DNA of 34,482 nucleotides, taken from positions 1 through 34,482 of the forward strand of contig JAUVZA010000008.1 of the NCBI GenBank assembly GCA_030602805.1, given 5' to 3'. Made by a program: the position numbers and the translations under genes. Below the pieces are notes generated by a model. The model ran no database searches, was not told the DNA's origin, and was given only the letters and a program-made list of their open reading frames with translations. This DNA is from Dehalococcoidia bacterium (GTDB lineage: Bacteria; Chloroflexota; Dehalococcoidia; Dehalococcoidales; JAUVZA01). Positions 2,986-20,707 of the stretch are shown here, piece after piece; the first letter of the stretch is position 1; each line of letters opens with the position of its first letter.

Positions 2986-3192
2986 ATGTTTTTGGGTGAA
3001 TTTGAGTACAAGATTGATGAAAAAGGCAGAGTGCCTATTCCACCTCGATTTAGAAGAGAACTAAAAGAGGGAGTGGTATTAACGCCAGGGGTAGAGAAGT
3101 GCATCACCGCCTACCCACTTCCTGAGTGGAAAAAACTGGCTGTCTGCAATTTTTTAGTTAGAATGCGCCTCAACGGGTTCAGGTCAGAGTAG
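2986..3192 (+). CDS. mraZ: truncated MraZ copy (first AbrB half only)
   Basis: This 68-aa ORF has its own AAAGGA ribosome binding site and repeats the first 52 codons of the full mraZ that follows. It includes the [17 protein letters not shown] SpoVT-AbrB core. After KKLA the frame runs into an unrelated tail (VCNFLVRMRLNGFRSE) and stops, so the second AbrB half is absent. Over the shared 52 codons, 14 codons differ and 10 of these are silent, which suggests constraint on the protein. It could be a half-MraZ that modulates the ring-shaped repressor, or a decaying duplicate. Confidence 0.65.
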   Translation: MFLGEFEYKIDEKGRVPIPPRFRRELKEGVVLTPGVEKCITAYPLPEWKKLAVCNFLVRMRLNGFRSE

Positions 3193-3239
3193 ACAGTTAG
3201 ACAACAAAGATAGGAGAAGCCGGAGCGGAAGGTTTTAAG

Positions 3240-3665
3240 ATGTTTTTTGGTGAATTTGAGTACAAGATTGATGAAAAAGGCAGAGTGCCTATTCCACCTC
3301 GATTCAGAAGGGAATTGAAAGAGGGAGTAGTCTTAACACCGGGGATAGAGAAGTGCATCACCGCCTACGCACTATCTGAGTGGAAAAAGCTGGCGGCTAC
3401 CCTTACTACCGGTTCAGTTACACGCAGTAAATTGAGAAGGCTAAATCGGGCTATTTTTGCTACCGCCTTCAGCCTCAATATTGACAGGCAAGGCAGGATA
3501 GCCATACCTATTCCGCTAAGGCAATATGCCGGTATTGAGGACGAAGTAGTTATAGCTGGAGCCAATAATTATCTTGAATTGTGGAACAAAGAGCAATGGG
3601 AAGCAGAGAAGGCAATTAGCCAAGAGCAAACCTGGCAAATTATAGAAAGCTTGGAGAGGCATTAA
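3240..3665 (+). CDS. mraZ: Transcriptional regulator MraZ
   Basis: The 141-aa product has both swapped-hairpin AbrB halves. The first is [18 protein letters not shown] (residues 5-22). The second is around [20 protein letters not shown] (residues 80-100), with the DxxGR motif in each. MraZ assembles into a ring and binds direct repeats upstream of its own operon; candidate boxes lie at 2944-2968. It is preceded by GGAAGG and by a truncated duplicate of its 5' part. rsmH begins 11 nt after its stop, as in most bacterial division clusters. Confidence 0.95.
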
Positions 3666-9255: not shown

Positions 9256-11868
9256 ATGTCAAATAATAGCCGTAAAAGAAACAATGGTGAAGGGTTTCTT
9301 AATCGTACTGAAATTCTCAAGGCTGTTGTTGCTGATGCTGAATCAATGGGTTTGCGTGATAGAGGCAAAATAGAGTGGCTCACCAATCAGATAATAGAAC
9401 GGCTGGAACAACGGCAACAATCGCAGCAGCCACAACCACTACCCGGAATGGAAGACCTGGTGCCGCAACCCCAGCGTCAACCAAGACGCCTGCCAAGCGA
9501 AGCGGAAATCGATGCTATGGTCAGAGAAATCCTGGCTGGTGAAGAACCAGCTCAGCGAGAAGAGGCTCAGCCTAAAGAGGAGGAAGTAGCTATGCCAGTC
9601 AAGACAAAAGCCCAGCCCACTTCTGGTATTAGTCTCACTGAAAATGCCCTTCGTGTTCTGGAAAGAAGGTACCTAAAAAAGGACAAACAGGGGCAAGTTA
9701 TTGAGACACCCAAAGAGATGTTCCATCGAGTAGCCCAGGCTATTGCCTCGGCTGAGCTTATCTACAACTCTAAGACGGATGTCAAGGCAAGGGAGAAGGA
9801 ATTCTACTGGTTGATGGCTAATCTGGAGTTCCTGCCTAACTCCCCTACCCTGATGAATGCCGGGAGGGAGTTAGGACAACTATCAGCCTGCTTTGTCCTT
9901 CCTGTTGAAGACTCGATGGAATCCATTTTTGATGCCGTAAAGTATACTGCGCTCATCCATAAGAGTGGTGGTGGAACTGGATTCTCTTTCTCCCAATTGC
10001 GGCCAGAGACAGATAGGGTCGGCTCTACAGGCGGAGTAGCCAGCGGCCCGGTCTCTTTCATGCGAGCCTTTGATACTGCTACCGATGTCATTAAACAAGG
10101 GGGGATGCGTCGTGGGGCAAACATGGCTATCCTTAATGTTGACCATCCCGATATTATGAAGTTCATCGAGGCTAAAAGTGACCCTAACGCTTTTACTAAC
10201 TTTAACCTCTCAGTAGCTGTAACCTCTGAATTTATGGAGGCAGTTAAGGCTGAGGCTGACTATAATCTGGTAAATCCCCATACCAAAGAAACTAAGGCCC
10301 AGAATGCAAAAGAGATATTTGACAAGATAGTGGCTATGGCCTGGAAAACAGGCGACCCGGGTATTGTCTTCATTGACCGAATAAATCAAGCTAACCCCAC
10401 CCGCCATCTAGGCAGAATTGAAAGCACCAATCCCTGCGGTGAGCAGCCCCTGCTTCCCTACGAGTCATGTAACCTAGGCTCCATAAATCTAAGTAGGATG
10501 CTACAAACCACGAATGGAAATGCTGAGATTGATTATGTCAAGCTAGCTGAAACAGTAAGGGTTGCCGTCAGGTTTCTAGATAATGTCATTGATGCCAATA
10601 AGTTTCCTCTACCTCAAATAGAGGAAATGACTAAGAAGACCAGGAAAATAGGGCTTGGGGTGATGGGATTTGCCGATATGCTAATCCGCCTAAATATTCC
10701 CTACGATTCAGAGGAGGCGCTGACACTAGCCGAGAAGGTAATGGCTGAGATACAGCGCTATGCAACCGAAGCTTCCAAGGAACTGGCACAGGAAAGAGGT
10801 GTCTTCCCTGCTTTTGAGGGAAGTGTATATGATGTTCCTAATGGTTTCGGGGTGAGAAATGCCACCCGAACTACTATTGCCCCCACCGGAACCTTGAGCA
10901 TAATAGCCGGGTGCTCCAGTGGCATTGAGCCCCTTTTTGCCCTGAGCTATGTTCATAATATCCTGGATGGTGCCCAGCTAGTAGAGGTAAACCCCTATTT
11001 TGAGGAAGTGGCTAAGCGTGAAGGCTTCTACTCTGAGGAGCTTATACAACAGCTAGCCACCGGCACCCAACTCCACACTCTGGAAGGCGTCCCTGACCAT
11101 ATCAAACGGTTATTTGTTACCGCCCACGAAATAAGCCCCGAAATGCATGTCAAGATGCAGGCCGCCTTCCAGAAATCCACCCACAACGCAGTGTCTAAAA
11201 CGGTTAACTTCCCTCAAGAGGCTACCCAGGAAGACATAGCCAAGGTGTATATGACGGCTTACGAGCTGGAGCTAAAGGGGCTAGAGTTAAAGGAACTGGG
11301 ACTAGAGGAACGACGGCTGAAAGGGATAACTATTTACCGAGATAGAAGCCGTGAGGCACAACCGTTAAGCACTAGCCAAGTCGAGAAGGTAGAAGGGGTT
11401 GGGCTTGCCCCCAGGAAGAGGTCAAAGATAACCTCAGGGATTACTGAAAGGGTAACCACCGGCTGCGGCTATCTCTATGTAACCGTGAACTCTGATGAGC
11501 AGGGAATATGCGAGGTCTTCTCCACCCTGGGTAAAGCTGGCGGCTGCGCCTCGGCTCAACTTGAAGCCACTTGCCGCCTTATTTCTCTTGCGTTACGGTC
11601 TGAGGTAGATGTTGCCAAAGTGGTAAGGCAGCTCCGCGGTATCCGTTGTCCATCCATTGCCTGGGAAGAGGGCAAGTCTATTCTCTCCTGTGCCGATGCC
11701 ATTGCTAGCGTTCTGGAAAAACATACCACTGGTTATGATGGTAAACCCAAGCCGGAGGACTACGGGATAGCCAAGAACCTGGCTGGGCAGTGCCCCGATT
11801 GCGGTAACCTGCTGGTCTATCAGGAAGGCTGTTTCACCTGCCCTAGCTGTGGGTATACTAAGTGCTGA
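9256..11868 (+). CDS. nrdJ: Class II (adenosylcobalamin-dependent) ribonucleotide reductase
   Basis: This enzyme makes deoxyribonucleotides using a B12-derived radical and needs no oxygen. I prefer the ATG at 9256 (870 aa) to the TTG at 9244, because GGGGAG lies 6-7 nt before it. The first ~125 residues are a Gln/Pro/Glu-rich, low-complexity extension. The catalytic barrel follows: LSACFVLPVEDSMESIF, KSGGGTGFSFSQLRP, RRGANMAIL, NPCGEQPLLPYESCNLGSIN (radical Cys in ESCNLGS) and APTGTLSIIAGCSSGIEP. The C-terminus has a TSCPD-like domain (TTGCGYLYVTVN, GGCASAQLEA) and a zinc-ribbon/redox tail (CPDCG...CPSCGYTKC). NrdR from upstream is the likely regulator. Confidence 0.95.
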   Translation: MSNNSRKRNNGEGFLNRTEILKAVVADAESMGLRDRGKIEWLTNQIIERLEQRQQSQQPQPLPGMEDLVPQPQRQPRRLPSEAEIDAMVREILAGEEPAQREEAQPKEEEVAMPVKTKAQPTSGISLTENALRVLERRYLKKDKQGQVIETPKEMFHRVAQAIASAELIYNSKTDVKAREKEFYWLMANLEFLPNSPTLMNAGRELGQLSACFVLPVEDSMESIFDAVKYTALIHKSGGGTGFSFSQLRPETDRVGSTGGVASGPVSFMRAFDTATDVIKQGGMRRGANMAILNVDHPDIMKFIEAKSDPNAFTNFNLSVAVTSEFMEAVKAEADYNLVNPHTKETKAQNAKEIFDKIVAMAWKTGDPGIVFIDRINQANPTRHLGRIESTNPCGEQPLLPYESCNLGSINLSRMLQTTNGNAEIDYVKLAETVRVAVRFLDNVIDANKFPLPQIEEMTKKTRKIGLGVMGFADMLIRLNIPYDSEEALTLAEKVMAEIQRYATEASKELAQERGVFPAFEGSVYDVPNGFGVRNATRTTIAPTGTLSIIAGCSSGIEPLFALSYVHNILDGAQLVEVNPYFEEVAKREGFYSEELIQQLATGTQLHTLEGVPDHIKRLFVTAHEISPEMHVKMQAAFQKSTHNAVSKTVNFPQEATQEDIAKVYMTAYELELKGLELKELGLEERRLKGITIYRDRSREAQPLSTSQVEKVEGVGLAPRKRSKITSGITERVTTGCGYLYVTVNSDEQGICEVFSTLGKAGGCASAQLEATCRLISLALRSEVDVAKVVRQLRGIRCPSIAWEEGKSILSCADAIASVLEKHTTGYDGKPKPEDYGIAKNLAGQCPDCGNLLVYQEGCFTCPSCGYTKC

Positions 11869-12251: not shown

Positions 12252-12288
12252 GCCAGCGTAGCTCAGGGGTAGAGCAGCGGTTTCGTAA
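12252..12288 (+). repeat. attL: 5' half of tRNA-Thr (tRNA fragment)
   Basis: These 37 nt are identical to tRNA positions G1 through the anticodon-loop end of the intact tRNA-Thr at 20633. After GTAA the sequence departs into TCTTTT, so the 3' half of the anticodon stem, the T arm and the acceptor 3' strand are missing. It cannot be a working tRNA. Confidence 0.9.
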
Positions 12289-12574
12289 TCTTTTGCTCCC
12301 ATATCTGCCGAAGCTGCCGCCCGACCTCCGAAACCACAGCTAAACGTAGCTGGTTGTTAGTCGCTGTGTTTCGCCGTCGACAACATTTTGAACAACAAAA
12401 GCGAGAGAGGGAAGCGTCAAAATGCCAGCTACGACTTGAGCGTGAGACGATGGCGGCAAAGGGGGATCATCGAACGCCGTAAGAAGGCAAGATTTGCATT
12501 GAGTATATAATTCCCAATTGGTTAGTGGTATAATAGACATAGGAGAGTCACTCGGCTTTCTAAAGGAGGATACA
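12289..12574. other. left element end: no gene, hairpins and integrase-arm-like motif
   Basis: No convincing ORF is present. The track ORF on the minus strand at 12340-12642 crosses the TIR start and looks spurious. Visible structure includes a CAGCTA-AACG-TAGCTG hairpin near 12337-12352. There is also one GAACAACAAA motif (12390-12399), which recurs twice at the right end. The promoter for the TIR gene closes the region. Confidence 0.5.
12526..12534 (+). promoter_or_regulatory. extended -10 promoter of the TIR gene
   Basis: TGG-TATAAT (12526-12534) is a perfect -10 with a TGn extension, 41 nt before the ATG. No good -35 is seen at the right distance, which extended -10 promoters tolerate. 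Confidence 0.5.
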
Positions 12575-12949
12575 ATGGCAAAGATAAGGGTATTCATAAG
12601 TTTTGATTTTGACAATGACAAGGTGCTAAAAGATTTTATCATCGGACAATCACGAAATGAGGACTCGCCTTTTGAGGTAATCGACCACTCATTGAAAGAA
12701 GCTGCACCTCAGAGGGATTGGGAACAGAAGGCAAGGAGTGCGATCAAACGCTCGAAAGTAGTCCTAGTCATGGTAGGGAAAAATACTCATAAGGCATCAG
12801 GAGTGCTAAAGGAAGTGGGTTTTGCCCGTGAGGAAGAAATTAAGATTGTCCAAATAATAGGATATAAGGACGGTGATTACACCCCTGTCCCTAATGCAGG
12901 TGTGTTATATAGTTGGAACTGGGAAAACCTCAAGAAGCTACTCGGGTAA
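12575..12949 (+). CDS. ThsB-like (MTH538/DUF1863) TIR-domain protein
   Basis: The 124-aa protein is essentially one TIR-like domain: strand A RVFISFDFDNDK (residues 5-16), FEVIDHSLKEA (33-43), an Arg/Lys-rich helix IKRSKVVLVMVGKNTHKAS (57-75) and KEVGFAREEEIKIVQIIGY (79-97). This matches the ThsB/DUF1863 family better than classical TIRs. Thoeris ThsB proteins sense phage and make cyclic ADP-ribose-type signals. Glu80 in KEVGFA sits where the catalytic Glu of the WExEYA motif is expected, though the Trp is replaced. I chose the ATG at 12575 for its AAAGGAGG site; the track start at 12518 lies upstream of the promoter -10. The membrane protein gene follows at once. Confidence 0.85.
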   Translation: MAKIRVFISFDFDNDKVLKDFIIGQSRNEDSPFEVIDHSLKEAAPQRDWEQKARSAIKRSKVVLVMVGKNTHKASGVLKEVGFAREEEIKIVQIIGYKDGDYTPVPNAGVLYSWNWENLKKLLG

Positions 12950-12956
12950 CATTCCA

Positions 12957-13397
12957 ATGGACACTGTCAACATTGAGTCGCCTTCTGTTCAGAGCTATGT
13001 AAGCATTCTCCAAGCGGTTATCAGTCGAATGGCCGCTAACAGTGCTGGATGCAAAACATGGTGCATTGCACTAGTGTCTGCGACCATAATAATAATCGCC
13101 ACTACTATAGAAAAACCGAACTATGCGTGGATAGCCCTCATCCCTATCTTGCTTTTCTTCTTTCTTGATTCTTACTATCTAGGATTGGAGCGGCGGTTCC
13201 GAGCTAGGTATGATAATTTCATATGTAAGTTGCACTCTAACTCTGCAACTATCAATGATTTGTTTATAGTTAAACCAGAAGCGGGCACAGGAATGGCATT
13301 CTTATCAACACTCGGAGCCTGCACATCATTTTCTATATGGCCTTTCTATGGGGTATTAGGCTTGATGCTGGCAGCAGCTCGGGTCTGGATTTTATGA
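12957..13397 (+). CDS. Small multi-TM protein paired with the TIR protein (candidate effector)
   Basis: The 146-aa protein starts at the ATG 7 nt after the TIR stop, so translational coupling is likely. The track start at 12873 overlaps the TIR gene and is unlikely. It has an N-terminal helix (SYVSILQAVISRMAANS), TM1 around 34-51, TM2 around 56-76 ending in LDSYYLGLERRFRARYDN, a soluble loop, and a hydrophobic C-terminus (112-145) that could form one or two more TM segments. From memory, small proteins with an LDxYYLxxERxFRxLYD motif recur beside TIR-like genes, but I cannot confirm this here. There is no Macro, SIR2 or SLOG domain, unlike known Thoeris ThsA proteins. A membrane-disrupting effector role is inferred. 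Confidence 0.7.
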   Translation: MDTVNIESPSVQSYVSILQAVISRMAANSAGCKTWCIALVSATIIIIATTIEKPNYAWIALIPILLFFFLDSYYLGLERRFRARYDNFICKLHSNSATINDLFIVKPEAGTGMAFLSTLGACTSFSIWPFYGVLGLMLAAARVWIL

Positions 13398-13431
13398 ATA
13401 AACAGGCCCAGTTTATCTGAACCCACCTACA

Positions 13432-13623
13432 CTATGCGTGCTCGGTGAGCCTCAACCTCTCCTCCACCTCCTCGATCTCCTCGTCGCTCATATCATAGAG
13501 GCATTTCGTTAATGGGCATGAAAGACACTGGACAGGCTGCCCCAGGAGCTGTCGCAACCTAAGGCAGCCTTTATCTTCACCCGCAGTGAAATAATCGGGT
13601 TTATCTGCGTGGCGTGCTACCAA
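13432..13623 (-). CDS. Small Cys-rich protein downstream of the capsid gene
   Basis: The 63-aa product has four cysteines as CLRLRQLLGQPVQC, then LSC and PLTKC (C-x12-C-x2-C-x4-C), which could bind zinc or an Fe-S cluster. An acidic helix follows (DMSDEEIEEVEERLRL). It starts 11 nt after the capsid gene stop on the same strand, so it is the last gene of the leftward block. I do not recognise the family. It is convergent with the TIR/TM unit. Confidence 0.6.
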   Translation of the reverse strand: MVARHADKPDYFTAGEDKGCLRLRQLLGQPVQCLSCPLTKCLYDMSDEEIEEVEERLRLTEHA

Positions 13624-13634
13624 TGCCTCTCCTT

Positions 13635-14726
13635 CTAGGATGCTTCGGTCAATAGGACGATGCTAACGTTGGCTGGTCGGATACAATATCCGCCGACTCG
13701 CTTATGGACCTTGAACCCGACTAGGCCAGCTTCAGCATAGAGTTCGGCCAGACGCTGGACGGTCATGCCACCCGTGTGATCAAGGATTCTATACCCAGCC
13801 TTAAAATTTCCGAACGCCGCAATCACGCCTTCCGTCCCTGCGAGGGTAGCCATGTCGTCCTGAGTGTGGATCGGGTATCCCAGGAGCGTCGGAGGCTGGC
13901 CAGCAATCGTGCTCGGCTGCCACAGGAATGAACCCTCATAGGTGCCAGCTTGATCTTTCGACCTTAACTTCCTTAGCTCCAGGGCGGTCAGGCTATGAAC
14001 CAGCCACGATGCACCCTTTCGGAACTTAGAGGGGCACGTGTATATGCACTCCAGTAGCTCTTCGATTTTAATGGCCCCAGCAGCAGCAGTTGTGATAGTG
14101 GCAGCCGCCAGGGTAGCATCAATGCTGAATCCTGCTGGCTGCTGATTGTCGTGTCCAGTACCAGCGACGAACGCCGTCTCCTCGGCCTCGGCTATGGCTC
14201 GGGCGAAACTATCAGTAAGCAAATTTGCCAGGTTGATATCGCTATCCATTAGCTCATCTTCGCCAACCTTGGACAGGCCATACAGGTCCTCGACATACTT
14301 ATAGACTGGTGCGGTCGGAGTTAGTGTGCTCTCTGTAATATCACTCCCAGTCTCCAGCTTACCCCAGCCAACAGAGGCCTCGCCGATCCCTCGAATCTGG
14401 AGGCGATCCTTGTCTATAGTCTTCTGATTGCACAGACCACGCATGACGACTAGCTCGGCTACGGCTCTCTCAATTTCGATCGTGATAACGGGGCTGATCA
14501 AATATTGCCCCGTGGCGTCCTCCACCAGAGCCTTGCTCTCTTTGCCGCTCCGAATATAGTCCAGAAAGGCTACATCCGCTTCTTTTAGCTCTAGACTTCG
14601 GTTTATGCCCCTATAGTCTTTGGGTAGATTGGCTCTCCCAAGCTTGATCTCACGATCATCGTTAAATCGCCTTATTCTAGCGACCTCTTCCTCCGCCTCT
14701 TTGATTAATTTTTCCAATGGGTCCAT
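13635..14726 (-). CDS. HK97-fold phage major capsid protein
   Basis: The 363-aa protein has a charged helical N-terminus (residues 1-60), like a short delta/scaffold domain. It is followed by EDATGQYLISPVITIEIERAV, the usual entry to the HK97 capsid fold. Further family features are the E-loop/P-domain region with ITESTLTPTAPVYKYVEDLYGLSKVGEDELMDS, the A-domain stretch SFLWQPSTIAGQPPTLLGYPIHTQDDM and the ending VGFKVHKRVGGYCIRPANVSIV. A perfect AAGGAGGT ribosome binding site lies 5 nt before the ATG. No neighbouring portal, protease or terminase exists, so the element alone cannot package DNA. Its capsid may need a helper phage or may form smaller shells. Confidence 0.88.
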   Translation of the reverse strand: MDPLEKLIKEAEEEVARIRRFNDDREIKLGRANLPKDYRGINRSLELKEADVAFLDYIRSGKESKALVEDATGQYLISPVITIEIERAVAELVVMRGLCNQKTIDKDRLQIRGIGEASVGWGKLETGSDITESTLTPTAPVYKYVEDLYGLSKVGEDELMDSDINLANLLTDSFARAIAEAEETAFVAGTGHDNQQPAGFSIDATLAAATITTAAAGAIKIEELLECIYTCPSKFRKGASWLVHSLTALELRKLRSKDQAGTYEGSFLWQPSTIAGQPPTLLGYPIHTQDDMATLAGTEGVIAAFGNFKAGYRILDHTGGMTVQRLAELYAEAGLVGFKVHKRVGGYCIRPANVSIVLLTEAS

Positions 14727-14731
14727 TTCGG

Positions 14732-14894
14732 ACCTCCTTATTTGTTACTTTGCTATCGGGTCGTTCCCGATTGCGGCTTCTCTTGGATATCGTAGGCTTG
14801 AAGTGAACAAATCGGCTTCTCCTCTCCGCTATCTTCTGAAGAAGTGCCATAGTGGCTATAGGAATAAGGAGGGGTTTTATTCCCTCCTTATTCC
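14732..14894 (-). promoter_or_regulatory. capsid-gene leader with competing hairpin and Shine-Dalgarno sequence
   Basis: A perfect 13-bp inverted repeat (14861-14873 and 14882-14894, 8-nt loop) lies in the capsid leader. On the capsid-sense strand its second arm, CCCTCCTTATTCC, is complementary to the first arm. It is also complementary over 10 nt to the capsid gene's own AATAAGGAGG ribosome binding site (14733-14742). The two pairings exclude each other. No U-run follows, so this is not an ordinary terminator. Translational control is inferred. Confidence 0.45.
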
Positions 14895-15230
14895 CTCGAG
14901 TCTGAGCTGGATGTCGTTCGCATCCTGCCCAAGACCACCATCATTTACATACTAGCGTGTTTCGCTAGACGATGATAATACAAATTCCTTATAGACGGAG
15001 GCATAGAGGACTGCGGATGTCCAGACAGCTGCTCATATTGCCACGATAGTATAGTGATGTTCATTTGATGTTCACGCCTCGGAGGGTAGGAGTTCGAGAT
15101 CCTACCCTCCTCGGCAGAAGGTGACGGCGGGGTAGAACGACGCCCCGCCTGACGCACGATAACCTGACCAGGTCATCAGGCCTCAGCCAAGGAGAACACG
15201 CCTTACCCGCCTGGTGACGGCTCGGATATA
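14895..15230. other. hairpin-rich noncoding segment inside the element
   Basis: Successive structures are visible: an 11-bp perfect stem GGAGGGTAGGA/TCCTACCCTCC (15081-15110), extended by GCC/GGC across a TC/TC internal loop; a 7-bp GGCGGGG/CCCCGCC stem (15126-15149); and a TGACC-A-GGTCA palindrome inside CCTGA/TCAGG (15163-15180). None ends in a T-run. A 70-codon ORF here (14945-15157, minus) lacks a ribosome binding site. Possible roles are a small RNA, a replication origin or a packaging site; the sequence does not decide. Confidence 0.5.
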
Positions 15231-15635
15231 CTAACGTTTTGGGCTATGGTAGCCGTTGCCATCGTTGCCGTCGTCGTCCTTCATTGCCATCGCCACGAAA
15301 TCACGCTCTACCCTCATCACACCATATTTTCCCGTGGGGTCGGCTATCGCCTGCTGCTCCCGCCATAGCATCTGCCAATCTTCCCAGGCTTTAATCCTAA
15401 GAGCAGCTATCTGTTTGAGGCTAGAATAGAGCTTGCCCTCAACTTCAGGCGATTCGTCGGGCGTGCAGAGGAGGGCTTCGTTTATATAGAAATCCGCCTC
15501 GTAGCAGGCTTGGTCGAAAGCCTGCCAACTATCGTCGCTGGTGATACTGCCGCTGAGACGGGTAGCCTCCTTTATCTTGTCAACGACCGTCTCGAGTAGG
15601 ATCTTAACCGCTTTGGCTGCCGTCTTCTTATCCAT
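15231..15635 (-). CDS. Hypothetical helical protein of the element
   Basis: The 134-aa protein is not recognised. It starts MDKKTAAKAVKILLETVVDK and looks mostly helical. It has an aromatic- and acid-rich middle (DDSWQAFDQACYEADFYINEALL), a second helix (AALRIKAWEDWQMLWREQQAI) and a short acidic/Gly tail. GGAGGTGG precedes the ATG. It lies between the primase-polymerase and the capsid gene on the same strand. A small-terminase-like or replication accessory role would fit the position, but no motif supports either. Confidence 0.6.
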   Translation of the reverse strand: MDKKTAAKAVKILLETVVDKIKEATRLSGSITSDDSWQAFDQACYEADFYINEALLCTPDESPEVEGKLYSSLKQIAALRIKAWEDWQMLWREQQAIADPTGKYGVMRVERDFVAMAMKDDDGNDGNGYHSPKR

Positions 15636-15647
15636 CTTCCACCTCCA

Positions 15648-15963
15648 GATGTTAGTAAATGTTATTAAATGTTAATATTTCCGTATGTAGTTAAATGTTG
15701 TCATCGTAGAACGTCATAAAATGTCATCATTCGTCATCGTCCCACCCCCCTATATTAGCTACGAACTTCTATTTTACCTTCACTCTCGATCGTAGCGGAT
15801 GATAAGGGATATCGTGACACTTGTGACCCTTCTACTTTCCAAGGGTCACAGTAATCTTATCGTGGTGTTTATATACTGTGACACTTGTGACAGGTGTGAC
15901 TATAGTTTCTAGGGTAGGTAGTATGAAAGAATTCGTGTCAAAGTACACCACAAGGGTCACAGT
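15648..15963. repeat. iteron-like repeat region, candidate replication origin
   Basis: This 336-nt gap between the helical protein gene and the primase-polymerase has several repeat families. TAAATGTT occurs at 15656, 15666 and 15692. GTCATC/GTCATA units are scattered through 15700-15740. GTGACACTTGTGAC occurs perfectly twice (15814-15827 and 15878-15891), with a third half-site GGTGTGAC at 15893. AAGGGTCACAGT occurs at 15841 and 15952, and the inverted form TTGTGACCCTT at 15821 makes a 10-bp hairpin with the 15841 copy. Such clustered direct and inverted repeats beside a replication gene are typical of an origin or of operator arrays. Confidence 0.6.
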
Positions 15964-15971
15964 TTCACAGG

Positions 15972-17624
15972 TCATAGCTTCCTCTCCTCTCTAAGCTCAT
16001 CAGTGACTATTTTAAGGGCTCTAGCGGTGGGGTCGGCGGGTTCATCTGGTTCATCCTCGCTGTGACCCTTCACCTCGGCTAGTAGTGAGGTATCCTCAAC
16101 CTCTTTTATTATGAATTCACTTGGCAAGAACCCCGTAGGCGATACCCAAACGCTTATCTGACTTCGGCTTTCCCCCCGATAGATAGATACGGATCTAAGT
16201 TTCTCGAAGCCTATCCTTCTTAGATAGCCCGCTAGTGTCTTCTGTGATAGGTTCTGCCCTAGCGTCATTCTAGCGTGACCTATTATAGAGGCGATGTGGA
16301 GGAATAACCTGCCTTCCTTATCTGCTGCAAATCCGATCCTATCATACGCTAAATCGCTACTCATAGCCGAGCCTAAACCATGTTCAGAATCTACTAGTTT
16401 AGGTTTGGTCGCCCCTCTTGCAAGAAAGCTTATTATCCACTGCTGCACCTCTTCCAGTTTTGTCACCGTCGGCTCAACCTTCACTAACAACCTTAGAGCT
16501 ATTGCAATCTCAGGCCAGCGTTTAACTGCTGCGGGATAAAGGACATGTCCAGCGTCGTATAATCGCTGGTAGGCTCGCCTGGGAGATAGAAACGAAGATG
16601 TCTCTCCCATAGGGATTGAAGTTCCGTCTTCAAGATTTAGCACATACTCGGCGTCCTCGGTTCCTAGCTGGACCAGACCCTTGACCTTAAATGGCAGAAG
16701 CTCCAGCACATCACTATGCCGCACCTTAGCTATGACGCCAGATATGTAGTCGAGCCTGAGAGCTTTCTTGAGGTCTTTCTCGTCGCCATGCCTGCGTCGG
16801 AAGGCGATTATGATGTTAGCTATCTCTTGGTCGCTCCCTCCTTCCCTTGCGACGTAGTTCGCCAATGACAAGTCATACTCGGATAGACTGGGTAGATCCT
16901 CCCGTTTATGGTCATATGTCTTGGCAAAACCCTTACGCCTACGCAACTCTTCGATCTTCAATGGTGGAAGCTGAGTGTTCGGGTCAAGCACCAGGTCGCT
17001 GACGGGCTTGCCGACAGGCTCGCTCTCAGTCTCCCTATCACCACCGAAGGTCTCGCTGTGGAGAGCGTCAAGTTGCCCCTGACGGTCATTGATGATATCA
17101 CGGCCACCTAATATATTTCCGGTAAGAGCGAAATAACGCTTACAGTCGTAGATCTCAACCTGGTCACGCCTACACTTGCCTGGAGGTTTATCTCCCCTTA
17201 CGATAATGTGGATTCCCTCCTCGCTTTGGGAAACCTCAGTATACGAATCCATTTGGTCTACGATAGCCTGTGCCCAGTCTAAGATCTCACCCGTCTCAGA
17301 GTCACGGACGCCATCCAGGTCAATGAAGGTGTAGGGGTCGTCCTCAGATAGCATAAAACCCACGCCGTTATATTTGCCAGTTTTGCTCCCTAGATAATTA
17401 TCTCTGGCCGTCTCAAACTTGGACCAGGTATAGGGAGCATTTGACATGGCCGCCTCACCAGTGCCAGCGTGCTTCGGCACCTTCTTCTTCGGATCATTGT
17501 CCTCTATACGCCAGACTACCCACTGCTTGAGTGCCTTCAGTTCGGCGGGGATATTATCAAGGTTATACGTTGCTGCGATCTTATCCACCTTCGCACCGCC
17601 TTTAGCCTTGCTTGGTATTGACAT
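15972..17624 (-). CDS. Primase-polymerase (NrS-1-like archaeo-eukaryotic primase)
   Basis: The 550-aa protein has an N-terminal PrimPol domain like that of phage NrS-1 polymerase and related plasmid/phage primases. IPAELKALKQWVVWRIE opens the domain. The metal-binding pair is in FIDLDGVRD (Asp102, Asp104), the His motif is EEGIHIIVRG (His139), and VEIYDCKRYFALTGN gives the third acidic region (157-160). These enzymes start and extend DNA without a separate primer. The C-terminal 250 residues look like DNA-binding winged-helix segments, and I see no Walker A loop, so no helicase is fused. Its start overlaps the upstream HTH gene by 23 nt. Confidence 0.85.
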   Translation of the reverse strand: MSIPSKAKGGAKVDKIAATYNLDNIPAELKALKQWVVWRIEDNDPKKKVPKHAGTGEAAMSNAPYTWSKFETARDNYLGSKTGKYNGVGFMLSEDDPYTFIDLDGVRDSETGEILDWAQAIVDQMDSYTEVSQSEEGIHIIVRGDKPPGKCRRDQVEIYDCKRYFALTGNILGGRDIINDRQGQLDALHSETFGGDRETESEPVGKPVSDLVLDPNTQLPPLKIEELRRRKGFAKTYDHKREDLPSLSEYDLSLANYVAREGGSDQEIANIIIAFRRRHGDEKDLKKALRLDYISGVIAKVRHSDVLELLPFKVKGLVQLGTEDAEYVLNLEDGTSIPMGETSSFLSPRRAYQRLYDAGHVLYPAAVKRWPEIAIALRLLVKVEPTVTKLEEVQQWIISFLARGATKPKLVDSEHGLGSAMSSDLAYDRIGFAADKEGRLFLHIASIIGHARMTLGQNLSQKTLAGYLRRIGFEKLRSVSIYRGESRSQISVWVSPTGFLPSEFIIKEVEDTSLLAEVKGHSEDEPDEPADPTARALKIVTDELREERKL

Positions 17625-17820
17625 CGCCGTCGATCATCGCCAGCAACTTCGCCCTGGATAACCTCACGAGTCTACCCAGGCGGATAGTCGGTAGCTCTCC
17701 CCTTTTGATCATGGCCCAGACCAGGGGAACGCTTATACCGAGTAGCTGCCCCGCCTCCTCGACGGTTAACGTTAGTGATCTCTCGATGAATTCTTCGGTT
17801 CGATATTTCTTATTCGGCAT
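17602..17820 (-). CDS. Excisionase-like helix-turn-helix protein
   Basis: The 72-aa protein has a MerR-like HTH_17 fold: LTVEEAGQLLGISVPLVWAMIKRGELPTIRLGRLVRLSRAKL. Xis and related DNA-binding proteins of mobile elements share it. GGAGGTGAG precedes the ATG. It is the first gene of the leftward block and overlaps the primase-polymerase gene. It probably bends DNA at att sites or controls the divergent promoters next to it. Excisionase and regulator cannot be separated from the sequence. Confidence 0.8.
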   Translation of the reverse strand: MPNKKYRTEEFIERSLTLTVEEAGQLLGISVPLVWAMIKRGELPTIRLGRLVRLSRAKLLAMIDGDVNTKQG

Positions 17821-17837
17821 CTCTCACCTCCACCCCA

Positions 17838-17866
17838 ATTATACCACATTATGGCTTTAATGTTAA
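17838..17866 (-). promoter_or_regulatory. promoter of the leftward replication/capsid block
   Basis: On the minus strand TTAACA and TATAAT are separated by exactly 17 nt, with a TGG extension before the -10. It lies 18 nt before the HTH start codon. Confidence 0.65.
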
Positions 17867-17910
17867 TACATTTGTCAAGAGCCTCCCGCAATATAGGCTT
17901 ATAGTCGGTA

Positions 17911-17939
17911 TTTACAAATGTTTCCATCTGTGGTATATT
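17911..17939 (+). promoter_or_regulatory. promoter of the rightward integrase block
   Basis: TTTACA and TATATT are separated by 17 nt, with the same TGTGG before the -10 as in the divergent promoter. ACAAATGT overlaps this -35 and also occurs, on the other strand, just upstream of the leftward promoter, suggesting a shared operator. Confidence 0.65.
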
Positions 17940-17941
17940 GT

Positions 17942-17968
17942 TTTCGGGTGTTAAGTCCTGACCCGAAA
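17942..17968 (+). promoter_or_regulatory. leader hairpin before the coiled-coil/integrase genes
   Basis: TTTCGGGT pairs with ACCCGAAA around an 11-nt loop. It lies just after the promoter and 12 nt before the AAGGAGGA ribosome binding site. It may stabilise the mRNA or bind a regulator. Confidence 0.4.
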
Positions 17969-17993
17969 GGCAGGCAGCGAAGGAGGATACACG

Positions 17994-18233
17994 ATGGAGA
18001 ACCGAGAGCAAGAGCAGGAAGCCCGAATGACCATACTTGAGGCACGGGTGGCATTCTGCGAGCAAAGACTCTCCGTGATGGAGAGAACCTTCGGGGGGAT
18101 TATCCAATCAACCCGACGAAGGAAGAGGCAGCCCACACCTGAGGAGAAGAAGGCTATCGTAGAAAGACTTGCGGCTGGTCGAGAGGCAGCCAGAGCCAGG
18201 AGAGAGGCCGAAGCTAAGAAGGAGGCTAAGTGA
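17994..18233 (+). CDS. Small coiled-coil protein upstream of the integrase
   Basis: The 79-aa protein begins MENREQEQEARMTILEARVAFCEQRL, a heptad-like coiled coil, followed by a basic segment (STRRRKRQPTPEEKK) and an Ala/Arg/Glu-rich helical tail. A strong AAGGAGGA lies 6 nt before the ATG. Its TGA overlaps the integrase ATG (TGATG), so the two are translationally coupled. I do not recognise the family. A recombination accessory or DNA-bridging role is inferred from the coupling and the charge. Confidence 0.75.
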   Translation: MENREQEQEARMTILEARVAFCEQRLSVMERTFGGIIQSTRRRKRQPTPEEKKAIVERLAAGREAARARREAEAKKEAK

Positions 18234-19372
18234 TGGGACACTTACAAAAGCGGGCAAAAGGTAGTTGGCAGATCTGCATCTGTAGTGGCTACGTCAGAGG
18301 CAAGGCCATTCGACATCACGAGACTGTGAGAGGCACTAAGAAGGAGGCCGAGCGACGCATGCGGGAGTTAGAGAGCAGCCTCGATAAAGGCGTGCCCATT
18401 TCAGTGGGACGGCTCACGGTAGCGGAGCATCTTAATAGCTGGTTGGCGGGCTATGTTCGAACTGCCTGCTCACCGAGGACGGCGGAAGGCTACCAGAGTA
18501 TCATAGAACGCCACTTAATACCGGAAATAGGGCACATCCAACTACGGCAGCTGCAACCCCAGGCAATCCAGAGCTACTATGGCAGGGCAGTCGAGCGGTT
18601 ATCGGCTCGGTCAGTCCAGCATCATCATCGGGTGCTATCCCAGAGCCTAAAGTATGCTGTCAGGCAAGGCTATCTGGGACGTAATCCTGCGGAACTGGTA
18701 ACTGCTCCATCTTCACGTAAGAGGGTTATGAGGACGCTGACGCCATCAGAAGTCGAGGTCCTGCTGGAAGAGGCGTCGGGCGACCGATTCTACCCGATAT
18801 ATTACATGGCTATCAGCAGTGGACTACGCCAGGCCGAACTACTGGGGTTACGATGGCGTGACTTGGATTTAGATCTCCTATCTATATCGGTCAGCCAGGT
18901 ACTCTACAAGCGGGGTGGTATATGCGAATTTAAGGAACCCAAGACGGAGCACAGCAGACGCAGGATAGCCATGACACCCAAACTAGCACTGTATTTTAAA
19001 GGATATAGAAAAGAGCGGGAGCTGCTATACCTGGAGCGAGGCAATGTCCTCGGCCTGGACGATCTGGTATTCGCCAATGGAGAGGACAAGCTCATCGACC
19101 CAGGCGTGCTGTCTCATACCTTCAGCAGGATATCCAGGCAGGCAGGACTGGGAAGGGTGCGATTCCACGACCTTAGACACACGTTCGCCAGCCTAATGTT
19201 GCTGCGTGGAGCGAAGCCGAAGGTTATCAGTGAGGCTCTCGGTCACGCCTCGGTAGCCTTTACTATGGACACCTATTCGCATATAATTGAGGGGATGCAG
19301 GAGGACGCTATGGCTCTGCTGGACGAGGTGCTGCCAGCGGGGGTGAACGGGATAAAAAGTAAAATAGGATAA
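18233..19372 (+). CDS. int: Tyrosine recombinase integrase
   Basis: The enzyme would integrate and excise the element at tRNA-Thr. The protein (379 aa from ATG 18233; a GTG start at 18230 is also possible) has an N-terminal arm-binding domain (GSWQICICSGYVRGKAIRHH), a SAM-like core-binding domain (about 62-160) and a catalytic domain. All catalytic residues are present in track numbering: Arg200 (SSGLRQAELLGLRW), Lys238, His313-x-x-Arg316 (FHDLRHTFASL), His339 (ALGHASV) and Tyr349 (DTYSHII). It is intact. One gene separates it from the right att site. Confidence 0.95.
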   Translation: MGHLQKRAKGSWQICICSGYVRGKAIRHHETVRGTKKEAERRMRELESSLDKGVPISVGRLTVAEHLNSWLAGYVRTACSPRTAEGYQSIIERHLIPEIGHIQLRQLQPQAIQSYYGRAVERLSARSVQHHHRVLSQSLKYAVRQGYLGRNPAELVTAPSSRKRVMRTLTPSEVEVLLEEASGDRFYPIYYMAISSGLRQAELLGLRWRDLDLDLLSISVSQVLYKRGGICEFKEPKTEHSRRRIAMTPKLALYFKGYRKERELLYLERGNVLGLDDLVFANGEDKLIDPGVLSHTFSRISRQAGLGRVRFHDLRHTFASLMLLRGAKPKVISEALGHASVAFTMDTYSHIIEGMQEDAMALLDEVLPAGVNGIKSKIG

Positions 19373-19386
19373 CGACAGGGGGGTGA

Positions 19387-20550
19387 GTGCAAGTGGAAAC
19401 TAACACGATATATTGCGGAGATAACCTAGAGGTTCTAGCTAAGTTCCCTGAGAAATCGGTTGACCTTATTTATGCCGACCCACCTTTCTTCAGCAACAAG
19501 CACTACGAGATTATCTGGGGTAATGGTGCTGAGATGAAGGTCTATGAGGACAGGTGGAAGGGTGGCATTAATGTCTTTATTGAGTGGATGTCAGAGAGGC
19601 TCTGGCAGTGCTATCGGGTGCTGAAGGATACTGGCTCAATGTATCTGCATTGTGACCGACGAGCCAATGCTCACTTGAGGGTAGCGATGAATAGTATATT
19701 TGGCGATGATAAGTTCCAGAACGAGATTGTGTGGGCATATCGAACTGGCGGTGTGAGTAAGAGACGGTTCGGGCACAAACACGATACGATTCTATTCTAT
19801 ACCAAGACACTAAACTATACCTTCAACCCGCTGAAAGAGAGGATATATTATGAGAAGCCGTTCTTTATCTCAAATAAAGATGCTGAGGGGAGATATTATG
19901 CTGATGTCCTGATGCGAGATGTTTGGGAAATCCCAGCCGTTATAAATGTCTCGAAGGAACGACTAGGCTACCCTACTCAGAAGCCCGAAGCATTGCTGAA
20001 ACGCATCATTGAGGCATCGTCAAATAAGGACGACATAGTGCTTGACCCCTTCTGTGGCTGTGGTACAACTCTAGTAGCAGCTCACCTCTTTGGTAGGAAA
20101 TGGCTTGGTATTGATGTTTCACCAATAGCCTGTGACCGAATGAAAAGCAGGCTAAACAAAGCTGGTGCGAGTGATGTCCATGTTATTGGAGCTCCTGCTA
20201 CCATTAAGGAGCTCAAAAGTCTTGAGCCCTTCCAGTTCCAGAACTGGGTTATAGACCGCATTGGCGGAGTGCCCAGCAGTAAGAAATCTGGTGACATGGG
20301 CATCGATGGTTATACCTTTATGGCACGAGAGCCTATTCAAGTTAAGCAGTCAGAAGGTGTGGGGAGGAATGTGGTAGACAACTTCGAGACAGCTATCAGG
20401 AGAGAGCATAAGACCATCGGATATATTATTGCTTTTAGCTTTTCCAAGAGTGCCTACGAGGAAGCAGCTAGAGCAAAGGCAGAGGATAAGATGGACATAA
20501 AACTTGTCAGAGTTGATGAAATGGATAAATACTTTGCTACCGCAACCTAA
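19387..20550 (+). CDS. DNA methyltransferase fused to an Mrr-like restriction nuclease domain
   Basis: The 387-aa protein starts at GTG behind AGGGGGG. Residues 1-255 are a beta-class N4/N6 amino-methyltransferase: YADPPF (motif IV, residues 29-34) comes before GYPTQKPEALL and the SAM loop LDPFCGCGTTLVAA (219-232). Residues 280-387 resemble Mrr_cat nucleases: FQNWVIDRIGG, then SGDMGIDG (Asp303/Asp307) and PIQVKQS (Gln318-x-Lys320), the D...QxK catalytic pattern. Modification and cleavage in one chain suggest a stand-alone restriction-modification enzyme. No target-recognition domain is obvious. It follows the integrase by 14 nt and may share its transcript. Confidence 0.85.
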   Translation: MQVETNTIYCGDNLEVLAKFPEKSVDLIYADPPFFSNKHYEIIWGNGAEMKVYEDRWKGGINVFIEWMSERLWQCYRVLKDTGSMYLHCDRRANAHLRVAMNSIFGDDKFQNEIVWAYRTGGVSKRRFGHKHDTILFYTKTLNYTFNPLKERIYYEKPFFISNKDAEGRYYADVLMRDVWEIPAVINVSKERLGYPTQKPEALLKRIIEASSNKDDIVLDPFCGCGTTLVAAHLFGRKWLGIDVSPIACDRMKSRLNKAGASDVHVIGAPATIKELKSLEPFQFQNWVIDRIGGVPSSKKSGDMGIDGYTFMAREPIQVKQSEGVGRNVVDNFETAIRREHKTIGYIIAFSFSKSAYEEAARAKAEDKMDIKLVRVDEMDKYFATAT

Positions 20551-20632
20551 TACATCCCGAATAATATTAAGGCCAAATCGACGTCAAACGAACAACAAAC
20601 GAACAACAAGGTGGGGAGGTTCACGATGGAAT
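20551..20632 (+). repeat. right element end with tandem 11-nt repeat (candidate integrase arm sites)
   Basis: CAAACGAACAA occurs twice in tandem (20585-20595 and 20596-20606), 27 nt before the att repeat. The embedded GAACAACAA also occurs once near the left end (12390). Repeats flanking the core fit integrase or Xis arm sites. No good promoter for the reconstituted tRNA is seen in these 82 nt. Confidence 0.5.
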
Positions 20633-20707
20633 GCCAGCGTAGCTCAGGGGTAGAGCAGCGGTTTCGTAAACCGCCGGTCGTCGGTTCAAATCCGACCGCT
20701 GGCTCCA
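20633..20707 (+). tRNA. tRNA-Thr (anticodon CGT)
   Basis: The 75 nt fold as a complete tRNA: acceptor GCCAGCG/CGCTGGC, D stem GCTC/GAGC, anticodon stem GCGGT/ACCGC with loop TTCGTAA (CGT, Thr codon ACG), T stem GTCGG/CCGAC with loop TTCAAAT, discriminator T and encoded CCA. Its first 37 nt are also the attR repeat, so the 5' half comes from the element and the 3' half from the chromosome. Confidence 0.96.

Follow-up and report, generated by a model that had tools for sequence, protein, structure and literature searches.

Putative replication origin iterons 3′ of a helicase-less PrimPol gene in a PICI-like integrated element of a Dehalococcoidia bacterium

Immediately 3′ of a gene for a primase-polymerase (PrimPol), a 34,482-nucleotide stretch of DNA from a Dehalococcoidia bacterium (contig JAUVZA010000008.1, analyzed over its whole length and hereafter called the window) carries short repeats that are very likely the replication origin iterons of an integrated phage satellite resembling the phage-inducible chromosomal islands (PICIs). 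We read the repeats as an origin because a relative of the element from another family has a near-identical 9-bp repeat at the same place. The original prediction, which had proposed an origin read by the element's own initiator and replication as a circle after excision, holds in part: the iterons recur in the relative at the same spot, with one base changed, and the site is that of the origins of PICIs, of Staphylococcus aureus pathogenicity islands (SaPIs), and of many PrimPol-VapE phages. Since no helicase is encoded in the element, both autonomous replication and a process driven solely by its own initiator are doubtful.

A 9-bp iteron in the gap 3′ of the PrimPol gene

All of the repeats named in the original prediction are present between the stop codon of the PrimPol gene and the start of the next gene (both on the minus strand). 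Copies of GTGACACTTGTGAC start at positions 15814 and 15878 and copies of AAGGGTCACAGT at 15841 and 15952, and an inverted copy, TGTGACCCTT (15822-15831), pairs with 15841-15850 in a 10-bp stem with a 9-nt loop. The third repeat, TAAATGTT, starts at 15656, 15666, and 15692. As a set, the repeats in the gap exceed chance. The 14-bp exact direct repeat was reached by 1 of 1,000 dinucleotide-preserving shuffles, and the surplus of 8-mer copies (23, versus a shuffled mean of 3.0) by none of them; an 8-mer in three copies was reached by 23 shuffles, and the 10-bp inverted repeat is unremarkable by itself (351 shuffles). Of the 478 other 350-bp stretches in the window, 2 are as rich in repeats. The richest of all (positions ~3001-3340), which is outside the element and just upstream of a gene at 3240, contains an exact direct repeat of 39 bp.

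Although the three predicted repeat families are all present, they are better read as an array of one 9-bp iteron, whose minus-strand sequence is AAGGGTCAC or AAGTGTCAC. Eight units on both strands span positions 15814-16070 (257 bp), some of them in tandem as GTGACACTT-GTGACCCTT and GTGACACTT-GTGACAGGT-GTGACTATA (Table 1). Allowing for up to one mismatch, AAGGGTCAC has six copies at this site and none elsewhere in the element, and the 1.5-Mb assembly has only one further place with even a looser array of three units. Two iterons that face each other produce the hairpin as a by-product, and we rejected it as a functional structure, given that its spacing differs in the relative. The TAAATGTT repeat does not belong to the iteron but is an AT-rich motif of its own next to where the following gene starts, and the stretch that contains it shows no sequence conservation in the relative's element. 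This AT-rich stretch (15650-15700) is possibly an unwinding region or the leader of the next gene. No intrinsic terminator was found in a search of the repeat region.

Conservation of the iterons in an element from another family

The relative, on contig 43 of genome G256 (JAUVYB010000022.1, hereafter L026), is an 8,186-bp syntenic element from another family of the same order. The repeat at its two ends is 38 bp long and corresponds to the 5′ half of tRNA-Arg(TCG). Proteins of the two elements are 84% (integrase-overlapping protein), 74% (helix-turn-helix [HTH] protein), 64% (capsid protein), ~56% (integrase), 46% (primase), and 36% (134-aa protein) identical. The relative has an extra gene, for a small terminase (terS), between the primase gene and the homologue of the 134-aa protein gene; a search for it in the window and in most of the compared loci gave no significant match.

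Beyond short words, the intergenic regions of the two elements contain no alignable DNA. The 9-bp units of the relative, AAGGGTGAC, are found at 10361 and 10446 and, inverted, at 10418, where they straddle the stop codon of the primase gene together with degenerate units at 10370, 10379, and 10437. This sequence is one base off the window iteron and has the same location and mixed orientation. A reciprocal consensus scan with one mismatch allowed revealed enrichment at the 3′ site of the primase gene (Poisson P = 4.7e−5 and 3.9e−7), and the 3′ end of that gene overlaps iterons in both elements, with one unit in the window and several in the relative. A lack of the repeats in relatives that keep PrimPol had been predicted to count against an origin; in the one relative that was compared, the iterons are kept. 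Searches of a class sample (393 genomes), the order (156 genomes), a phylum sample (400 genomes), IMG/VR, and genome contigs recovered G256 as the only source of a further intact element, and one more candidate, L224, proved to be a false lead.

Comparison with the origins of PICIs and PrimPol-VapE replicons

Origins of PICIs consist of iterons and AT-rich DNA immediately 3′ of the primase or initiator gene (PMC6092414). SaPI Rep reads such iterons via its C-terminal domain, and Cch2 of the staphylococcal cassette chromosome mec binds direct repeats that directly follow the gene encoding it (PMC7581432). The element has this arrangement at the level of sequence, with the AT-rich DNA beside, and not clearly between, the sets of iterons. 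Its genes are ordered as integrase, small gene and HTH gene, primase, iterons, terS (in the relative only), and capsid, and the order of integrase, excisionase-like gene, primase, origin, and then the relative's terS is that of SaPIbov1, SaPI5, and EcCICFT073 (PMC6092414, PMC7581432). Unlike these islands, which have a primase and a helicase-active Rep, the window element has a PrimPol without a Walker A motif, a proposed initiator with no helicase domain; it also has a major capsid gene and no master repressor of a recognized family, and its host lineage is, as far as we searched, new for the group.

A second comparison involved 11 annotated phage or satellite records with PrimPol/VapE genes, chosen regardless of repeats. 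The 350 bp after the PrimPol/VapE gene are the most repeat-rich stretch of the locus in 5 of the 11, each with its own 8- to 9-bp iteron. PrimPol-VapE phage origins (for example, those of L190, L191, L193, L194, and L201) resemble the window site in having element-specific 8- to 9-bp iterons on both strands directly after the gene. These replicons differ from the element in that they encode a VapE helicase, and their iteron sequences also differ, except in two viral contigs (L096 and L099) in which arrays of AAGGGTGAC flank AT-rich DNA directly after the VapE gene. Both contigs were picked by the iteron motif and are therefore illustrative and not an independent test. Opposed arrays of AAGGGTGAC or GTCACCCTT units around AT-rich DNA were seen in L096 (720-880), L099 (415-520), L087 (2594-2690), L109 (12720-12830), and L139 (~983-1130). 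The iteron pattern search of viral contigs returned mostly collagen-like coding repeats.

PrimPol as the proposed initiator

Residues ~24-268 of PrimPol match the structures of NrS-1 PrimPol (6a9w), and residues 12-195 match a 797-aa DNA primase (7ola) that we take to be the SaPI5 protein (E values in Table 1). The protein has the archaeo-eukaryotic primase domain of the NrS-1 type, with the DxD motif as IDLD and the histidine motif as SEEGIH. No Walker A motif was found in either of the two primases or in the longer frames of the window element, and neither primase has a helicase P-loop.

A model of the full-length primase was unusable (predicted local distance difference test [pLDDT] score of 41). 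A model of C-terminal residues 306-505 has a mean pLDDT of 70 and is best over its first 80 residues. The top two PDB matches of this model are SaPIbov1 Rep (probability of 0.99 and 0.95, E ~0.1), and the model also significantly matches phage primase proteins. Its last part appears, at low confidence, to have the helix-helix-strand-strand order of a winged helix. A profile comparison of the PrimPol C terminus with VapE C termini gave no usable signal.

We consider it reasonably probable that PrimPol binds the iterons, with the HTH protein as an alternative candidate. We think that PrimPol both binds the iterons and primes, and that the helicase is borrowed; replication probably needs a helicase of the host or of a helper phage, because the element encodes none. 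A precedent for a satellite initiator without a helicase is RepA of the phage-inducible chromosomal island-like element (PLE) of Vibrio cholerae, which binds iterons and borrows helper functions (PMC7145576).

Proposed mechanism and alternative explanations

In the scheme that we infer for origin function, the binding protein, helicase recruitment, and helper dependence, the integrase and the excisionase-like protein would excise the element at the tRNA-Thr repeats. PrimPol, probably by its C-terminal region, would then bind the 9-bp units 3′ of its own gene, the neighboring AT-rich stretch would melt, and the primase domain would lay primers. A helicase of the host or of a helper phage would be recruited, because the element encodes none, and the copies would be packaged using parts of the helper phage. 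Excision as a circle is plausible because the element has 37-bp attachment (att) repeats in tRNA-Thr and genes for an integrase and an excisionase-like protein.

The array also lies upstream of the operon that starts at 15635 (134-aa protein and capsid), and the repeats might be an operator at which a regulator, such as the HTH protein, controls that operon. Such a role would fit the number of promoter-like matches in the region (three, versus 1.0 expected) and the HTH protein's 74% identity across the two elements, as expected if its site were conserved. The promoter matches are weak, however, and units are absent from the promoters of the HTH gene itself and of the integrase gene and from the surroundings of the att sites. 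Moreover, units lie inside the primase coding sequence (one in the window and several in the relative), and an array of eight units that spans 257 bp and uses both orientations exceeds typical operators. We regard an operator as unlikely. The possibility that the locus is a decayed prophage, with the repeats an unused relic of a phage origin, would account for the single structural gene, the absent helicase, and the relative's terS not being found in the window, and decayed relatives are known (L220 and L221). The two elements, however, have the same gene order and near-equal sizes (8.4 and 8.2 kb) across two families, uninterrupted frames, and perfect att repeats, each pair derived from a different tRNA gene, and their iterons were kept while the adjoining DNA diverged, which makes a dead prophage quite improbable. 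The units could also be arm-type or excisionase sites for recombination, since direct repeats of roughly this length can be bound by tyrosine integrases of this type. We rejected this very remote explanation because the array is distant from both att repeats (~3.5 kb from the left one and ~4.7 kb from the right one), with no units near either.

Several observations weigh against an origin bound and primed by PrimPol. The element has no helicase, unlike SaPI and P4; the SaPIbov1 Rep match has an E value of ~0.1, and confidence in the modeled winged helix is low; 6 of the 11 comparison records have no clear repeat peak after the gene; and, with two intact elements known, conservation of the iterons is a single comparison.

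Gene content and classification of the element

Positions 12252-20632 constitute an integrated element, because joining the flanks in silico restores one intact tRNA gene. The att repeats are perfect direct copies, 37 bp long, of sequence from the 5′ half of tRNA-Thr(CGT). Integrases of this family target the anticodon arm of a tRNA gene, and insertion duplicates the 5′ half; the tRNA gene that stays intact has a 5′ half supplied by the element. Such integrases, with identities of 47 to 72%, are common in the host order, several of them adjoining tRNA genes.

Table 1. Features of the PICI-like element and its putative origin (window coordinates)
Feature	Position	Strand	Evidence or remarks
Iterons 1-2	15814..15831 (second from 15823)	-	GTGACACTT GTGACCCTT = minus-strand AAGGGTCAC AAGTGTCAC
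Iteron 3	15841..15849	+	AAGGGTCAC, opposite orientation
Iterons 4-6	15878..15904 (units at 15878, 15887, 15896)	-	GTGACACTT GTGACAGGT GTGACTATA, last two degenerate
Iteron 7	15952..15960	+	AAGGGTCAC, opposite orientation
Iteron 8	16062..16070	-	GTGACCCTT, within 3′ end of primase coding sequence
AT-rich stretch	15650..15700	.	Three TAAATGTT, up to 80% A+T
PrimPol, 550 aa, proposed initiator-primase	15972..17624	-	6a9w, E 9e−26; 7ola, E 1e−17
Integrated element, 8,381 bp, PICI-like	12252..20632	.	37-bp att repeats; joined flanks; syntenic relative
att repeat, left copy, 5′ half of tRNA-Thr	12252..12288	+	
att repeat, right copy	20633..20669	+	First half of intact tRNA-Thr 20633-20707
TIR protein and partner, candidate defense pair (PDC-M50-like)	12518..13397	+	ThsB_TIR; PDC-M50A, E 3.5e−26
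HK97-type major capsid protein	13635..14726	-	PF05065, TIGR01554
134-aa protein	15231..15635	-	36% identical in relative
Excisionase-like HTH_17 protein, 72 aa	17602..17820	-	PF12728; TIGR01764 excise
Small protein, 79 aa, overlaps integrase start	17994..18233	+	84% identical in relative
Tyrosine integrase	18230..19372	+	PF00589
DNA methylase-Mrr fusion, cargo	19387..20550	+	PF01555, PF04471

In its layout, the element corresponds to a PICI-like phage satellite, except that it has no helicase and has a lone capsid gene, and it probably depends on a helper phage. The capsid gene, of the HK97 type, is kept in both elements (13635-14726 in the window and 12014-13135 in L026) without a protease, portal, or large terminase gene. 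By its satellite-encoded capsid protein, the element resembles the capsid-forming PICIs (cf-PICIs), which encode protease, portal, connectors, and terminases as well as capsid (PMC10690885); unlike them, it lacks this full head and packaging gene set, with a capsid protein only in the window and terS only in the relative. The capsid protein is ~46% identical to that of an apparent full prophage (L219) of the same order, and a prophage of that type is a conceivable helper. Capsid relatives in IMG/VR are accompanied by no other gene of the element. A decayed relative in another family (L221, 9597-10202) consists of a capsid fragment and a fragment of the integrase C terminus (85% identical) beside tRNA-Thr(CGT).

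Another likeness is to the PICMI satellites of Vibrionaceae, with which the element shares a small size, an integrase gene with a 4-nt overlapping small gene, an HTH_17/AlpA-type gene, and a primase (PMC10803314). PICMIs differ in having a primase of another type (DUF3987/DUF5906), in being fis-linked, and in rolling-circle replication; the element has the integrase, AlpA-type, and overlapping genes, no Pfam match to DUF3987/DUF5906, and att sites in tRNA-Thr. The small integrase-overlapping gene corresponds by position to iolg, which PICMIs need for excision (PMC10803314).

The kind of origin is already known; the satellite lineage and its helicase-less primase are apparently new, as judged from two intact elements. 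We tentatively put forward, as a possibility that we do not favor, a separate satellite lineage in which a helicase-less PrimPol with a Rep-like domain and a DNA-binding end recognizes and primes the origin, the helicase comes from the host or helper, and the lone capsid protein may redirect helper heads. The element provides a short origin-initiator pair for phage satellites of a poorly cultured lineage and a case of a satellite initiator without the usual helicase part, which, if it works, would allow studies of origin recognition and priming in which helicase loading is kept apart. A further addition is a satellite with a capsid protein and without other head genes.

Among the remaining genes, the small integrase-overlapping protein (79 to 82 aa; 8192-8440 in L026) is better conserved than any other protein of the element and matches no known family; its gene overlaps that of the integrase at GTGA in the window element and at ATGA in the relative. 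Together with the divergent HTH gene, it flanks positions 17821-17993, and no recognized repressor family was found in profile searches, which also gave no family match for the 134-aa protein. The TIR protein and its PDC-M50A-like membrane partner form a candidate phage defense pair at the left end of the element. Cargo of the relative (13230-14094 in L026) is a likely toxin-antitoxin pair, in which a gene for a 93-aa partner lies upstream of a SocA/Panacea antitoxin-like gene.
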